A DNA stretch of 64,000 nucleotides, from contig NC_007513.1 of NCBI RefSeq assembly GCF_000012505.1, positions 1,426,001 through 1,490,000 of the forward strand, written 5' to 3'. The number at the start of each line of letters is the position of its first letter. Position 1 is the first letter of the stretch. A program made the translations under genes and the position numbers. A model generated the notes under the pieces. That model was given only the letters and a program-made list of their open reading frames with translations. It searched no databases and was not told the origin of the DNA. Positions 757-6,937 of this stretch are shown here, one piece after another. The DNA comes from Synechococcus sp. CC9902. GTDB taxonomy: Bacteria > Cyanobacteriota > Cyanobacteriia > PCC-6307 > Cyanobiaceae.

Positions 757-954
757 TCACAGCAGTCCTGCCGAGATGGAAGCTTCCTCGGCCTGCGATA
801 ACGAATCAGGATCTAAATCCATATCAGCGATGACGCTTTGAATCAGATCGCGTGTGAGGCGAAACCTCTCTTTCTTTGATGCAGAACGAGGCCAATCATC
901 GATGCCTTCAAGGATCGGGGTATTGCTGCAAATGCCGTCAAGGATCTTTGCCAT
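757..954 (-). CDS. Small conserved hypothetical protein, paralogue of the island gene at 3383-3577
   Basis: 65 residues from an ATG at 954. The family is not one I can name. The C-terminal half contains FRLTRDLIQSVIADMDLDPD followed by a Ser/Gln/Glu-rich helix and ends SAGLL. That half is nearly identical to the island protein at 3383-3577: 62 nt (794-855 against 3479-3540, in inverted orientation) match exactly, while the first third has drifted. Both copies keep the DDWPRS motif upstream. Conservation in two copies supports real coding. The acidic and amphipathic make-up suggests a small protein-binding or dimerising module, which is inference only. Confidence 0.6.
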   Translation of the reverse strand: MAKILDGICSNTPILEGIDDWPRSASKKERFRLTRDLIQSVIADMDLDPDSLSQAEEASISAGLL

Positions 955-1946: not shown

Positions 1947-2114
1947 CACATCCCCTTTGAACCGAGTGTTTCGACTTTTTCTACCAGCAGAGCCGCTTAC
2001 CGCCATTTGGCGCACATTTTGGCGCAGAAAAATGATACTTAACCGTTTCGGCATCAAAAAGGCGACCCTTACAAGCCGCCGAAAAAGCTGTCCGTGACTG
2101 GTTTATTCTAAAAA

Positions 2115-2167
2115 TGGAGCCAAGCGGATTCGAACCGCTGACCCCCTGCATGCCATACAGGTGCTCT
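2115..2167 (-). repeat. Displaced 3' fragment of tRNA-Ala (distal att repeat)
   Basis: 53 nt match the 3' part of the intact tRNA-Ala(GGC) gene at 6803-6855 with a single A/G difference in the anticodon-stem region. The match stops at the D-arm side, and the following bases do not form a tRNA 5' half. This is what remains of the original tRNA end after integration restored the gene on the other side. The flank at about 2040-2114 also loosely resembles the flank at 6745-6802. Confidence 0.88.
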
Positions 2168-2298
2168 TTAGCTAAAACCTATTGGTACGACTAGGCCAGA
2201 GCAGAAGTATTAAATTTTTAGAGTAATTTTTAGAGTAGAGCTGTCCTAGCGGCTTAAACGCGCAAGAACCGTTGACAGCACTACTAGGTCGCCCTTTC

Positions 2299-2321
2299 TC
2301 AAGGTTGTATTACTACCTTGA
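2299..2321. repeat. Inverted repeat upstream of the island operon
   Basis: TCAAGGT (2299-2305) and ACCTTGA (2315-2321) are perfect inverted arms around a 9-nt centre, about 130 nt before the first operon gene. It may be an operator for an island regulator or a weak hairpin. No T-run follows, so a terminator is less likely. Confidence 0.4.
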
Positions 2322-2395
2322 AAGCATCAAATAAGGACCACCGAAGCAGCCCTTATTCGCTGTGCTACGCCGACTAGCCACCGTAAGACTGGCCA

Positions 2396-2423
2396 GTTAC
2401 ATATTAACGAAGGAAGCTACAAT
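2396..2423 (+). promoter_or_regulatory. Candidate sigma-70 type promoter of the island operon
   Basis: GTTACA (2396-2401) and TACAAT (2418-2423) are separated by 16 nt and lie 27 nt upstream of the first operon ATG at 2451. The -10 matches 5 of 6 consensus bases, the -35 about 4 of 6. Pattern match only. Confidence 0.35.
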
Positions 2424-2450
2424 AAAACTATCTTAAAACAGTCTTTTTGA

Positions 2451-2627
2451 ATGCCTAAACGTCAGCTACCTATCGAGGCTGAGCTGATCATCAACCGTCT
2501 TCGCTTGGAGGCAAATGTTGAGCATCAGTATGCATTAATTGATACGGATGACGATGCACCATCTGTGCCGTCATTTGATCCAATGAGCAATCCACAGAGC
2601 CGTCGCACAGCAACCCATGTCAGCTGA
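2451..2627 (+). CDS. Island operon gene 1, hypothetical protein (58 aa)
   Basis: ATG at 2451, TGA at 2625-2627. The product starts MPKRQLPIEAELIINRLRLEAN, with a helical N-terminal half, an acidic DTDDDAP stretch, then a Pro/Ser-rich tail ending HVS. It overlaps the next start (ATG 2617) by 11 nt, which supports translational coupling and real coding despite its size. No family recognised. A small DNA- or protein-binding accessory factor of the operon is possible but unproven. Confidence 0.5.
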   Translation: MPKRQLPIEAELIINRLRLEANVEHQYALIDTDDDAPSVPSFDPMSNPQSRRTATHVS

Positions 2628-3033
2628 ATACCAATCAATCGACGACCAGATCAAGGCGTCTTATCAGTCCGCTTCACAAGTGGAAACTCAGGCCCGTCAG
2701 CTTGAGGCTCGTATCGCCAAAATAGATGGTGCAAAGCGCCACTTACCGGCACGACGTTATGGGCAACCTGTAGACCTCAACAAAATCCGCAGTAACCTCA
2801 CACTTACAAGCCTTATTGCACAAGATTCCGCAGAGCTATCTCACTTTTGCGGCATTGATCCAAGCCTTCGGCACCGTATCGACGAGGAGCGCGAGGCCCA
2901 AGCCATGCGCGTCGAGGCGTTGCGCATGCAAACCGAGGCTCTACGGCAGCAAAACGCTCAGGCGCAGGCCGATCGTGATCGTGCTTTTCACGCCGGGGTT
3001 AATCCAGCCACTCATCGTCGCCACGGGTACTGA
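2617..3033 (+). CDS. Island operon gene 2, coiled-coil hypothetical protein
   Basis: 138 residues. The first ~45 residues and residues ~90-125 are rich in Glu, Gln, Arg and Ala with heptad-like spacing (QVETQARQLEARI, then DEEREAQAMRVEALRMQTEA), indicating two coiled-coil segments around a more mixed centre (LTLTSLIAQDSAELSHFCGID). No enzyme motif is visible. Stop TGA and the next ATG overlap as TGATG at 3031-3035, so it is translated together with gene 3. Unknown role. The coiled coils suggest self-assembly or a structural partner. Confidence 0.6.
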   Translation: MSAEYQSIDDQIKASYQSASQVETQARQLEARIAKIDGAKRHLPARRYGQPVDLNKIRSNLTLTSLIAQDSAELSHFCGIDPSLRHRIDEEREAQAMRVEALRMQTEALRQQNAQAQADRDRAFHAGVNPATHRRHGY

Positions 3034-3386
3034 TGCTTTCACGACCACACCCTTGCTTGGGATGGCTGCACGTCACACCCAATGACACCCGCAAGCTCTT
3101 GGATCGCTTGCTGAAGGATCGTGATGCTGCTCTAGAGGCAGACCCAATCCATAGCGGTATGCCGCAAGCGTTCATCGACTGGACGTGGCAAACCTGGTTG
3201 CCCGGCAACATGCACCGCTATCAGGCTCAGGTTGAGGAACACGTCCGTTACCTCGACCTCAAGATCGATGGTTTGAACAAAGATCTCGAACACATCGCTG
3301 GTGGTGTTCTTGATGACCGTGACGCTGCTACGGACCTACGTGATCGCCTCAAACGTGAACTTGCTTCAACAGCACTGCAGTCATGA
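3033..3386 (+). CDS. Island operon gene 3, helical hypothetical protein
   Basis: 117 residues, starting at the ATG that overlaps the stop of gene 2. Largely helical and charged: DTRKLLDRLLKDRDAALEAD, a Trp-containing middle (FIDWTWQTWLPGN), then VEEHVRYLDLKIDGLNKDLE and a basic C-terminal helix. The last four bases overlap gene 4 (ATGA at 3383-3386). No catalytic motif or named family seen. Its position in a four-gene cluster with start/stop overlaps implies a common complex or pathway with genes 1, 2 and 4. Confidence 0.6.
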   Translation: MLSRPHPCLGWLHVTPNDTRKLLDRLLKDRDAALEADPIHSGMPQAFIDWTWQTWLPGNMHRYQAQVEEHVRYLDLKIDGLNKDLEHIAGGVLDDRDAATDLRDRLKRELASTALQS

Positions 3387-3577
3387 GCAACATCCTTGAT
3401 CACATCGCTCCAACACCAGTTCTTGATGTTGTGGACGATTGGCCTCGATCAACGACACGCACGGAATGGTTTCGCCTTACACGCGATCTGATTCAAAGCG
3501 TCATCGCTGATATGGATTTAGATCCTGATTCGTTATCGCAAGTCGAGGAAGCTTTTATCTCTGCAGGACTGCTGTGA
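3383..3577 (+). CDS. Island operon gene 4, small conserved protein, paralogue of 757-954
   Basis: 64 residues from an ATG overlapping gene 3. It has the DDWPRS motif near residue 20 and the same C-terminal half as the protein encoded outside the island at 757-954, with 62 identical nucleotides. The N-terminal third differs (MSNILDHIAPTPVLDVV here). The pair may reflect duplication between island and flank or gene conversion. This is the only operon gene with a relative in the window. Function unknown. Confidence 0.65.
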   Translation: MSNILDHIAPTPVLDVVDDWPRSTTRTEWFRLTRDLIQSVIADMDLDPDSLSQVEEAFISAGLL

Positions 3578-3709
3578 GAGTTGCGCTTGGTTACGTAACC
3601 AACTAAACGTCAAAGGATCAGATGCGGGGATGGGATGGAGAGAGGCTGAGAGGGGGAGATTGGTGAGAGATAATGAAAAGAGATCTAGAACAAGACAGAC
3701 CGCACAAAG

Positions 3710-4738
3710 ATGAAGCAGGAAACTCAGGACTTTCTGGACTTTATAGATCGAGAGCTTAATCCAGGCACTATCACCATTGAGAAATGGAAGAAGTATCTCA
3801 AAAAGCTTCCCCAGATCTACAACGGCGACATAGCATTCCGATTGCTATTCGATTGGCACTGGGACCGAACAAATAGCATAGGACGCGCATTCTTCAAACA
3901 CGACTCACTTAATACGGAAGATTACATTTACACCAAGCAAGTGGAAATAATCGGAAGCGCAGGCATGCATTTCCATAACCTTGGATATCAATACCAGGAG
4001 CTTATCAAATGCCACGCACGATGCGACTTTCTAGGCAAGTCTATTCTTGAAATTGGAGGATCACTTCCCAACGACCTACTCTTCGAACATCTTGGGATTG
4101 AGTCATACATCAACATCGAATCTCCTGACTATATTGAAGCCAAGTCAGGCTCGACATATAGCTCCAAGCACGGCGACCACGAGAGGAGACAAACAATCTT
4201 CTGCAATGCGGAAGAGATCGACAAGAAAGTCAACAACGAATCAATCGACAGCATCTTTTCGGTCGCATGCTTTGAACATATTTACGACCTACCAGCAGCA
4301 CTAGAAGCATGCCATGCTTGCAGCAAGAAGGGAGGCACCCTCTATTCATTCTTCGCACCAATTTATTCACAAATCGACGAAGGAGACCATGGCGTCATCC
4401 CTCAGCATGAGAGATTCCCAGAGAAGCCCATCGGACTTCACTTACTCTCACGAGAAGATCAGAGAAAGAAACTGATCAGCGCAGGCATTACCGACCCCAA
4501 AGAGATCCAAGACTTTTTGGGTCGAGTCAACTTCAACCGAGTCCCCAATCGTCTTCTCTACAAAGACTATGAAAGGATCTGCACCGAATCTCCATATGCC
4601 GTTTTAGAGCTTGATCGGCAAGATGAATACAACATATCCAAAAGATTCCCGCGTCAGTTTGCAGAGGTTAGATCATCCAACATACATATCAACAATATGA
4701 TGACATTGGGTTTCAGGATTCATCTACTAAAAGCATAA
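3710..4738 (+). CDS. SAM-dependent methyltransferase-like protein (island cargo)
   Basis: 342 residues. A class I methyltransferase core is visible in the middle: a motif I-like stretch SILEIGGSLPNDLL (about residues 111-124), an acidic strand end (INIESPDY) and a motif IV-like IDSIFSVACFEHIYDLPAAL, the layout of Methyltransf_11-type enzymes. The N-terminal ~100 residues and the C-terminal ~130 residues are not recognised and may bind the substrate, such as a sugar or surface glycan. The gene is clearly AT-richer than core genes and stands alone, with a 132-nt gap from the operon. Acquisition with the island is likely. Confidence 0.7.
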   Translation: MKQETQDFLDFIDRELNPGTITIEKWKKYLKKLPQIYNGDIAFRLLFDWHWDRTNSIGRAFFKHDSLNTEDYIYTKQVEIIGSAGMHFHNLGYQYQELIKCHARCDFLGKSILEIGGSLPNDLLFEHLGIESYINIESPDYIEAKSGSTYSSKHGDHERRQTIFCNAEEIDKKVNNESIDSIFSVACFEHIYDLPAALEACHACSKKGGTLYSFFAPIYSQIDEGDHGVIPQHERFPEKPIGLHLLSREDQRKKLISAGITDPKEIQDFLGRVNFNRVPNRLLYKDYERICTESPYAVLELDRQDEYNISKRFPRQFAEVRSSNIHINNMMTLGFRIHLLKA

Positions 4739-4990
4739 ACTGCACCCCCTTTGCCTCAACACAAAAACTTAGCAATACAAACGCATCTGATATTACTTGA
4801 TTCTGCAACTACTTGTTTCCAGGTCTACGGTGCAATCCAAGGCTGTATCTAGCATGAATCGTTCCCCCGTATTGATACAGATAATTTCATCATTGCACCA
4901 GCTATTAGGCGATCAAGTGATCAACGGCTAGCATCTCAGTAATATATATTGTTTTCAGTAAAATAAATTGAGCTGATAGCATGATAACCC

Positions 4991-5518
4991 ATGGCTAAAA
5001 CCACTTACAAGGAGCGTCAGTTACGTCGTCGTAGAGCTGCTGAATTACTCGCTGGAGGTTTATCGCCTGCTGATGCCGTGTCACGCCTGACAGCGGAGTG
5101 GGGGTGCAGTCGTCGAACAAGCCTGCGTGACGTAAATCTTGGGCAGGATGCGTTGTTAGAGAGCATCGACTCACAAACGCACGCGCAATTAGCTGCATGG
5201 TGTGTGGCGTCATATGCACGACTGATGAACAAGGCTGAGAAGGCACATCAATACGGTGCAGCGATTGGTGCATTGAACGGCTTGGTGCGATTGGTGGTGG
5301 AGCCTCAGATGCAGATCGCGAATAAGCGCACGTTTAACGGCAGCAGGCTGCAGCAGATAGCACAATTCAGGTATACCCATGGCATGCCAATTACCTCGCT
5401 TTTTAGTTATCGGCAGCGACTAATCCTTCGTTATATCTCTCAACTGCCGCTTCCAGACTGGCTTCATCAACCCAGCTTCCGTAATGCTTCAAGTGAACTG
5501 CAACTGTGTGACCCATAA
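4991..5518 (+). CDS. HTH-like small protein of the island, C-terminus doubtful
   Basis: 175 residues as an open frame. The N-terminus is very basic (YKERQLRRRRAAELLAGG) and is followed by a helix-turn-helix-like pattern (LSPADAVSRLTAEWGCSRRT), reminiscent of phage small terminase or replication-initiator DNA-binding domains. A helical middle follows to about residue 110. The last ~40 residues overlap the integrase remnant on the other strand (5403-5518) and differ in composition, so the native gene was probably truncated or fused to other DNA near 5340-5400. Regulator or packaging-type protein; not certain. Confidence 0.5.
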   Translation: MAKTTYKERQLRRRRAAELLAGGLSPADAVSRLTAEWGCSRRTSLRDVNLGQDALLESIDSQTHAQLAAWCVASYARLMNKAEKAHQYGAAIGALNGLVRLVVEPQMQIANKRTFNGSRLQQIAQFRYTHGMPITSLFSYRQRLILRYISQLPLPDWLHQPSFRNASSELQLCDP

Positions 5519-6671
5519 GCGCAGCTGCTTGTCGAACATGCAAACCATTGTTTGACCAAACGTGACAGCGCCAGGCCCATGAATGTCTCAGCGAATAAGG
5601 AGTGACGCCTTCATTGGTGCGAACCAGATTTTTCCAAGGCTCATAACGCTTCAGCAACTGCCCAAACGCGTGACCGACTTGCTGGAAGGTGCCCTTGTCT
5701 TAAACCTTGCTGATCTCGTTCAAAACAGCCGCTGGCAGCTTCACCAAGCCGGATGAATACAGCTGCAACAACCGCTTGCCCTCACCTTCACGGCCAGCAA
5801 TATCCAGCGGTAAGCAGCGCCGTGGTGGCTTTGCCTTCTGCGCCAACGTTGCGATGTTCCGCTTAACGGCACCGGCGTAGAGCTTGTCGCCTTTAACGGT
5901 CAACAGAGCCAGCTCAGCAGGACGCAAACCAAACAGCGCAATCAGACCAGTTGCAAGGCGAAGGTCATGACGACCGTCAGCTTCCATTTGATCCAGCAAC
6001 GCGGCTAGGTCTTCTGGCTTGACTGGAGGCGTTAGCCGCTCCTCGGTAGAGGTTGCGGCTAACGCCGATCAGTTCATTGATGAACGCCTTCTCTGGTGGC
6101 AACCAACGCTGTGGCGCTCCTGCTTTGTTGACGGCAAAGGTCAAGAACGCACAGGCATCACCAAGGTTGCGCTTTCTGCCTTGGCCACCTGGTGCCATGC
6201 CCTTGAAATGCAGTTCCGCAAACCGCTTCAGCAACGCCCGTGAATCACGTGGTTTAGGTCTGCTTTTCATGCACTGCAAAACACGATCAAGACGCGTCCT
6301 GAGGTCAGCCAGCGTTGAGGTACGACGGCCTTCTTTGGTGCCCAGATACTCCTCAACAACAGCTGGCCAACCTTGATCCGCAGTGCCGTTGTGCTCTTCA
6401 GGAACAGCTAGTGCCTCAGTGTCCAAAGGACGGCCTCAGCAACGCTGACGTTCCTGGTTTCAACCAACTCACGAACGCGTGTGACGGCGTTCAAGATCAC
6501 CACCGATTTGGTGGCTTTCCACTCAATAGGCAGCACCTTGGCCGACTTGGTGCCGTCTTCGTAGCGGCGCGTCAGCTTGCATTTGCCGCTTTGAGCAATG
6601 ACATTCCAACCGTTTCCGTGGTTGTCCCTGATCTGGCGTCTCAGCGTTTGTTCCCACTTCTGTGGAGGCAT
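5403..6671 (-). pseudogene. Tyrosine recombinase/integrase, broken by two frameshifts and a stop
   Basis: Four minus-strand fragments join into one integrase of about 420 residues. Fragment 6671-6408 (basic arm-binding N-terminus) runs into 6426-5977 by a frameshift near 6420. A second frameshift near 6040 leads into the fragment ending at 5700, where the other frame reads on as ERLTPPVKPEDLAALLDQ. A TAA at 5702-5700 interrupts it in frame, after which DKGTFQQVGHAFG continues to 5403. Catalytic boxes remain: GLRPAEL (first Arg), SLRHSWA, and LMGHTVAVHLKHYGSW, which supplies the late His and the Tyr. It lies beside the tRNA-Ala target. As read, it cannot make a full protein. Confidence 0.88.
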
Positions 6672-6747
6672 GACTGCTTCCTGGATCTAGAGCAGGATTT
6701 AGAGCAGAACAGCCCCAGCAGGCTGTAGCAGGGTGTTGTCAGACAAC

Positions 6748-6769
6748 AAAAAAGCGGTCTTATGACCGC
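6748..6769 (-). terminator. Rho-independent terminator downstream of tRNA-Ala
   Basis: On the minus strand GCGGTC (from 6769) pairs with GACCGC around a 4-nt loop and is followed by six T residues (complement of 6748-6753). It sits 34 nt past the tRNA-Ala 3' end and would end its transcript. Confidence 0.75.
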
Positions 6770-6802
6770 CAAAAACCTTGTCTATGACTGTGGTTTTCCT
6801 GA

Positions 6803-6855
6803 TGGAGCCAAGCGGATTCGAACCGCTGACCCCCTGCATGCCATGCAGGTGCTCT
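6803..6855 (-). repeat. Proximal att repeat inside tRNA-Ala
   Basis: This 53-nt 3' part of the intact tRNA gene is the partner of the fragment at 2115-2167. Together they mark the island ends. Confidence 0.88.
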
Positions 6856-6875
6856 ACCAGCTGAGCTATGGCCCC
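6803..6875 (-). tRNA. tRNA-Ala (GGC)
   Basis: 73 nt. The acceptor stem GGGGCCA pairs with TGGCTCC (one G-T), discriminator A. The D-arm starts TAGCTCAGCTGG, the anticodon stem CCTGC/GCAGG holds the loop ATGGCAT with anticodon GGC, and the T-arm contains GGTTCGAATCC. CCA is not encoded. The gene is the integration target of the island on its 3' side. Confidence 0.97.
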
Positions 6876-6937
6876 AAAAACGATGGAATTGCCCTCGAGC
6901 AACCCTTCGTCGTGAGGACTTTACACCGTGAAGACCC

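Follow-up and report, generated by a model that had tools for sequence, protein, structure and literature searches.

An island of about 4.6–4.7 kb, inserted at a tRNA-Ala(GGC) gene of Synechococcus sp. CC9902, is in our assessment a decayed phage satellite that would have used its own small terminase (TerS) to redirect the packaging of a helper siphophage; we put the probability of this reading at roughly three in four. The island lies in a 64,000-nt stretch of the genome (contig NC_007513.1, positions 1,426,001–1,490,000; hereafter the window, numbered from its first letter), and it is most likely a member of a family of phage parasites found in Synechococcus and Prochlorococcus. Support comes from its attachment (att) sites and integrase, from the lack of virion genes in the family member scanned for them, and from a TerS-related gene at the end opposite the integrase. 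In marine picocyanobacteria, the turnover of genomic islands has been attributed to small elements of this tRNA-borne sort.

Comparison with empty sites identified the island as an insertion. One intact tRNA-Ala(GGC) gene was found by ARAGORN and Rfam on the minus strand (6801–6876; Rfam core 6803–6875). Part of it is repeated directly (2114–2167 versus 6802–6855), over 54 nt with 98% identity and a sole mismatch in the anticodon stem, and this repeat was matched over that length at only two places in the single-contig genome (2,234,828 bases). The sequence-only reading, an earlier model-made note, had reported the intact gene at 6803–6875 and a 53-nt copy of its 3' end at 2115–2167, and both hold with these small adjustments. 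In a close relative, G002 (FtsH 99% identical), the order is ftsH, argF, lexA, one tRNA-Ala and the native flank, with no insert. The left flank of the window together with the tRNA copy aligns to G002 without a break (700 bp, 87%), as does the right side (238 bp, 93%). Because these flanks align unbroken around one tRNA-Ala, the segment between the tRNA copies is an insertion, as had been proposed, and the copy at 2114–2167 is the displaced original 3' end. The tRNA-Ala site of G003 is likewise empty, so the segment is not common to all close relatives; gene B of the element (below) is patchy and occurs at varied tRNA sites. A second complete tRNA at 2114–2167 was considered and rejected, as the copy comprises only positions 22–75 of the same tRNA and one intact gene was found. 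The boundary features are:

1993–2113, no strand: native flank past attR, outside the element; directly adjoins tRNA-Ala in empty sites.
2114–2167, minus strand: attR, the displaced native 3' part of tRNA-Ala(GGC); past it, the sequence runs on as at the empty G002 site.
6801–6876, minus strand: attL, the intact tRNA-Ala(GGC), which the insertion restored; lexA lies upstream of the tRNA; identified by ARAGORN and Rfam and by comparison with G002.

The island is one copy of a wider family, which we traced by a genus search with the insert, giving scattered matches, and by comparing the surroundings of those matches. The family was rebuilt from 30 loci bearing gene B, in Synechococcus, Prochlorococcus and neighbours. 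At the end opposite the integrase (Int), genes are ordered A (~58 aa), B (~135 aa), C (~115 aa), sometimes D (~64 aa), a variable slot and E (~125 aa). Converging on them from the opposite strand are a RepA/DnaB-like AAA helicase, primase genes in several members, a small excisionase-like gene (Xis) with a helix-turn-helix (HTH), and Int. Family members occupy tRNA-Ala, tRNA-Arg(TCT), tRNA-Pro(TGG) and tmRNA genes, and one element with Int and E adjoins tRNA-Val(TAC). Complete copies span 6.4–8.6 kb with att repeats; those bounded by tRNA-Ala repeats include L074 and L075 (~7.6 kb each), L077 (8.6 kb), L035 in genome G014 (8.1 kb), L081 in Prochlorococcus (6.9 kb) and L125 in Prochlorococcus AG-355-G23 (6.4 kb). 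These intact relatives, with the same gene order at tRNA-Ala and at other tRNA and tmRNA genes, bear out the earlier suggestion, made from layout, that the island is a degraded copy from a group of small picocyanobacterial elements that target tRNA genes.

The family is sparsely distributed. Gene B was present in 26 of the 400 genomes searched from the taxonomic family of the host, and in only nine of the genus genomes among those searched, at differing tRNA sites. A profile search with gene C in 299 genomes of the order gave matches confined to the host's family of cyanobacteria. Ratios of nonsynonymous to synonymous substitution (dN/dS) were 0.1–0.35 for genes A to E and 0.18 for Int, which indicates purifying selection and therefore real, selected genes. 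Large alignments of genes E and C were too diverse for pattern scans. The host genome also carries a second island, L042 (G000:C1 444506–447718), which adjoins ssrA (tmRNA) and contains an integrase-like 357-aa frame, a gene E and fragments of a second E and of D.

Within the window copy, the frames of A, B, C, D and a methyltransferase are intact, and the A–D frames overlap by 1–11 nt at every junction in an operon-like manner. The features between the att sites are:

2330–2400, plus strand: non-coding leader that precedes A and is conserved, including a hairpin at ~2371–2398; the same block stands before A in L035, L038, L040 and L041.
2451–2627, plus strand: gene A, 58 aa, conserved core; 20 family members, dN/dS 0.22–0.26.
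2617–3033, plus strand: gene B, 138 aa, conserved core, predicted to be all-helical (pLDDT 85); dN/dS 0.12–0.23.
3033–3386, plus strand: gene C, 117 aa, conserved core, in which an HP motif is invariant and RD and LP motifs are nearly so; dN/dS 0.13–0.17.
3383–3577, plus strand: gene D, 64 aa, found in part of the family; dN/dS 0.28–0.34.
3710–4738, plus strand: cargo, a 342-aa class I S-adenosylmethionine-dependent methyltransferase (Methyltransf_11, 3e-5; Methyltransf_23, 1.7e-5).
4991–5380, plus strand: gene E, TerS-like, to which a deletion has joined further sequence, so that the open frame continues to 5518; its homolog in MED4-184, P-HS2 and MED4-117 is the gene immediately before terL.
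5380–5402, no strand: approximate deletion junction, placed by a split match of the gene E frame to L035; in the G014 element, the helicase, a topoisomerase-like gene and Xis occupy the gap.
5403–6671, minus strand: integrase pseudogene (tyrosine recombinase).

Gene E links the element to phages. The E family aligns with the gene before terL of the Prochlorococcus siphophage MED4-184 (hhalign, 97.1%, E-value 4.7e-11, 100 columns), and this was its only match among the 59 annotated MED4-184 proteins (next best 13.2%). A subset restricted to Prochlorococcus copies of E matched the phage gene as well (91.6%). When a divergent E protein (L076) was compared with 50,697 phage records, all five matches were to siphophages of Prochlorococcus, from the MED4-184/P-HS2/MED4-117 group, with an E-value (0.2) that is non-significant alone. 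Gene E is therefore homologous to the siphophage gene upstream of terL. The phage counterpart (CPAG_00036) encodes 107 aa and shares 4 nt with the start of terL, which is the TerS position; a TerS role for it and for gene E is well supported by this position, though not proven. No profile match was found between gene E and the unrelated TerS of PSS2 (0.1%).

Structure prediction is consistent with a TerS assignment. The AlphaFold2 model of gene E (pLDDT 88) consists of an HTH followed by a helical hairpin (helices 6–21, 26–37 and 41–58, then 61–84 and 88–115). TerS protomers have been described as an N-terminal HTH plus a helical-hairpin oligomerization core, a plan that the model fits (PMC9611059). 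The top two PDB matches were the small terminases of G20C and P74-26, and both were weak (Foldseek E-value ~1; VIA Z 5.2, 103 residues, 9.4 Å), so the fold search alone decides nothing about gene E.

Gene A had no Pfam or PHROG match, and gene B had no significant fold match in the PDB or BFVD. No relative of B, C or Int was detected among the phage records or in MED4-184. When the DNA of the entire element and the B, Int and several E proteins were searched against the phage records, nothing was returned beyond chance-level Acinetobacter hits for one E. The L081 helicase shares 33% identity (E-value 8e-50) with the RepA protein of the Synechococcus siphovirus S-CBS3 and 30% with a gene of S-CBS1. 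Among the genes scanned in the compact, complete L081, none matched capsid, portal, tail or large terminase (TerL) genes, with some small open reading frames lying outside the scan; the gene lists of L074, L075, L077 and L125 leave no room for capsid, tail, portal or large terminase genes. In the stretch between gene E and the helicase, we looked for a shared pac/cos or ori word and found none.

The window copy is decayed. The sequence-only reading had noted an integrase remnant beside the tRNA, and this proved to be a tyrosine integrase broken in three places: it has lost 1 nt near 6427, gained 1 nt near 6060 and acquired a stop at 5700–5702. It is 87% identical in nucleotides to the intact 422-aa integrase gene of L035 in G014, and intact relatives match PHROG integrases. 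The start of the integrase gene adjoins the 3' end of the tRNA, as expected at the int-proximal end. Relative to the G014 element, A and B align at 74% and the Int region at 86% nucleotide identity, and ~3.8 kb between gene E and Int is missing. Residues 1–130 of the window gene E frame match L035 13182–13544, and residues 127–175 match L035 17338–17481. The C-terminal part of the frame thus aligns next to the G014 Int, which indicates that the deletion took the helicase and Xis and replaced the tail of gene E. From these lesions we conclude that the window copy is immobile by its own means. In the G014 element, a 284-aa gene with a DNA topoisomerase PHROG match (8.1e-65) lies between gene E and the helicase (L035 13755–14609); elsewhere only a fragment of a relative was seen, in L047.

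Together, these features suggest how an intact satellite might operate. It integrates by means of its own tyrosine recombinase, which targets the anticodon stem-loop of a tRNA gene, in this case tRNA-Ala(GGC). As the empty site and the repeats show, the tRNA is thereby restored and a 3' copy stays behind at the distal end. Upon helper infection it would be excised by Int and Xis and replicated by its own RepA-like helicase and primase, all of which have genes in relatives. The converging operon A-B-C-(D)-E would then be expressed, and the putative small terminase encoded by E would steer the packaging motor of the helper, with its large terminase, onto satellite DNA. A siphophage resembling P-HS2 or MED4-184 is the candidate helper. 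We can only guess that B and C, one of them helical and both specific to the satellite, may act on head assembly or interfere with the helper. The slot between D and E would carry cargo, here the methyltransferase. The window copy, having lost helicase, primase and Xis in one internal deletion and Int through frameshifts, could at most be moved or packaged in trans. The sequence-only reading had also raised the idea of a satellite; the homology of gene E with the gene in the siphophage TerS position supports that part, and the use of a helper is our inference from sequence.

Several observations weigh against this interpretation. The family is known here from genes alone, from which we infer packaging, induction and dependence on a helper. 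Scans of IMG/VR with B, C and E, which reach close relatives only, gave no relatives, and a scan with Int gave two weak partial matches. Direct Foldseek support for a TerS fold in gene E is weak, and its phage counterpart is annotated as hypothetical only, so that the TerS role rests on gene position. Finally, we found 42 orphan E genes without nearby satellite genes, so gene E can serve outside a satellite context. These orphans occur at 42 Prochlorococcus-type loci (L126–L181), encode 110–142 aa and have a median dN/dS of 0.18. In the DNA fetched around them (at most 7 kb on each side, often ended by contig ends), genes A, B and C, Int and the helicase were all missing; the orphans are often near small monooxygenase-type genes. 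Orphan E genes are possibly domesticated packaging decoys.

The most serious competitor, which we nevertheless judge unlikely, is a non-satellite integrative element, a cargo carrier resembling tycheposons that spreads by vesicles, transformation or chance transduction. Genes A–E would then form a replication or regulation module, and E would be a DNA-binding regulator that merely shares ancestry with TerS. The variable cargo slot, the generic HTH of gene E and its weak matches to transcriptional activator PHROGs, the persistence of orphan E genes on their own and the lack of IMG/VR matches are all in keeping with such a carrier. However, the sole phage relative of gene E lies directly upstream of terL and overlaps it, and the A–E operon is placed opposite Int with its order kept in 30 loci.

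A P-HS2/MED4-184-type prophage, reduced to a remnant by loss of its structural genes, is far less probable. Such a prophage would account for a gene E shared with these phages and for element helicases that share ancestry with S-CBS3 and S-CBS1 genes, but the small gene set recurs complete, with intact ends and Int, at several sites and in several genera, without structural genes where scanned. B and C also lack relatives in MED4-184, and B lacks one in any phage record.

We give almost no credence to an ordinary island in which unrelated genes gathered at a tRNA hotspot without forming a coherent element. The conserved order of the genes, the purifying selection on them and the existence of complete copies with defined ends contradict it, even though the hotspot is variable, with several tandem elements at the tRNA in G014 and variability also in the copy of gene D and the MIF gene (both below) alongside.

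Elements of the sort favored here, phage satellites, are already known, both as classic terS satellites and as tycheposons and VEIMEs; the comparison with tycheposons is by description only. A 2023 abstract by Hackl et al. on tycheposons reportedly calls some of them viral satellites. Like the family described here, tycheposons are small, picocyanobacterial, integrated at tRNA genes by a tyrosine recombinase and variable in cargo. They are Prochlorococcus elements, and several relatives of the window element are likewise in Prochlorococcus genomes. SaPI and PICI elements share the layout: Int, Xis and the replication genes stand opposite an operon whose last gene is TerS-like, and virion genes are absent. 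That likeness extends to layout and to the proposed redirection of packaging; their hosts differ, and the helper here is only a candidate. VEIMEs are similarly marine and small, with a tyrosine integrase, but are defined by recovery from virions, whereas the present family is known from genes and IMG/VR scans were negative for B, C and E. Tycheposons and VEIMEs are cited as satellite families; the tycheposon study is cited in PMC10803314, PMC11389934 and PMC10872708. PICMI of Vibrionaceae are also small marine integrated satellites with an integrase and few genes; in contrast to the family here, with its TerS-like gene E and different host group, they have no terS or other packaging-redirection genes (PMC10803314). 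In the MED4-184/P-HS2/MED4-117 phages themselves, the homolog of gene E is followed by terL, which the satellites lack.

We found no published description, the tycheposon catalogue aside, of a TerS link to P-HS2-like siphophages or of the 42 orphan E genes. A TerS-like gene common to one cultured siphophage group names a helper to test, the conserved A–E core offers a marker for finding the family, and the orphans hint that hosts may have retained a packaging gene. A bolder and rather doubtful proposal is that A-B-C-E defines a satellite family distinct from those described, tied through TerS to P-HS2-like siphophages, in which B and C would be a new head-hijacking pair, and that the orphan E genes under purifying selection in dozens of Prochlorococcus genomes encode satellite TerS proteins domesticated as decoys that counter siphophage packaging.

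The sequence-only reading had treated the small operon of the island as non-standard cargo. This holds for the methyltransferase (3710–4738) alone; the operon itself is the conserved family core, and one of its genes has a phage counterpart. The methyltransferase has a G+C content of 44.5% (versus 52.8% for A–D), and its relatives, 51–58% identical, are in other genera, with none close within the genus. Other copies carry unrelated genes at this position between D and E, including a pilin-like gene in L035 and others in L037, L038 and L041. PADLOC returned no convincing defence match for the cargo or core genes. Gene D has a copy, D' (757–954, minus strand), as a 168-nt inverted repeat with 83% identity, which adjoins a gene of the MIF/tautomerase family (982–1329). 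Pairs of D' and MIF genes recur in other genomes (e.g., G019 C53 and C43, G016 C86), so gene D travels outside the satellite as well.

The leader block before A recurs in L035, L038, L040 and L041 at differing tRNA sites. Its hairpin loop, CCACCGTAA, is invariant in five elements, and the stem varies (CTAG/CTAG, CCAG/CTGG). Folding z-scores of −0.3 to −1.7 were unconvincing for an RNA structure, and the window copy alone was non-significant. The hairpin is possibly an RNA regulator or a DNA site.

The position of integration within tRNA-Ala differs among elements. Most leave a 3' copy of the tRNA (positions ~22/29–75), and two leave a 5' copy (positions 1–43). In these two Prochlorococcus copies (L125 5872–12462 and L123 9762–9804), the 5' half of the tRNA is duplicated and the element lies on the other side of the tRNA. 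The part common to both repeat types, positions ~29–43, is the near-palindromic anticodon stem-loop CCTGCATGGCATGCAGG. Given this near-palindrome, the recombinase would be able to insert in either orientation relative to the tRNA, as the repeats suggest. At the tRNA-Ala of G014, a tandem array (L035 2186 to L036 7412) comprises three elements with differing integrase orientation, separated by three partial tRNA copies plus the intact tRNA-Ala gene. In the window, the native flank of the tRNA contains a small gene with a PBCV-specific basic adaptor domain (1534–1800), which is 93% identical in G002.

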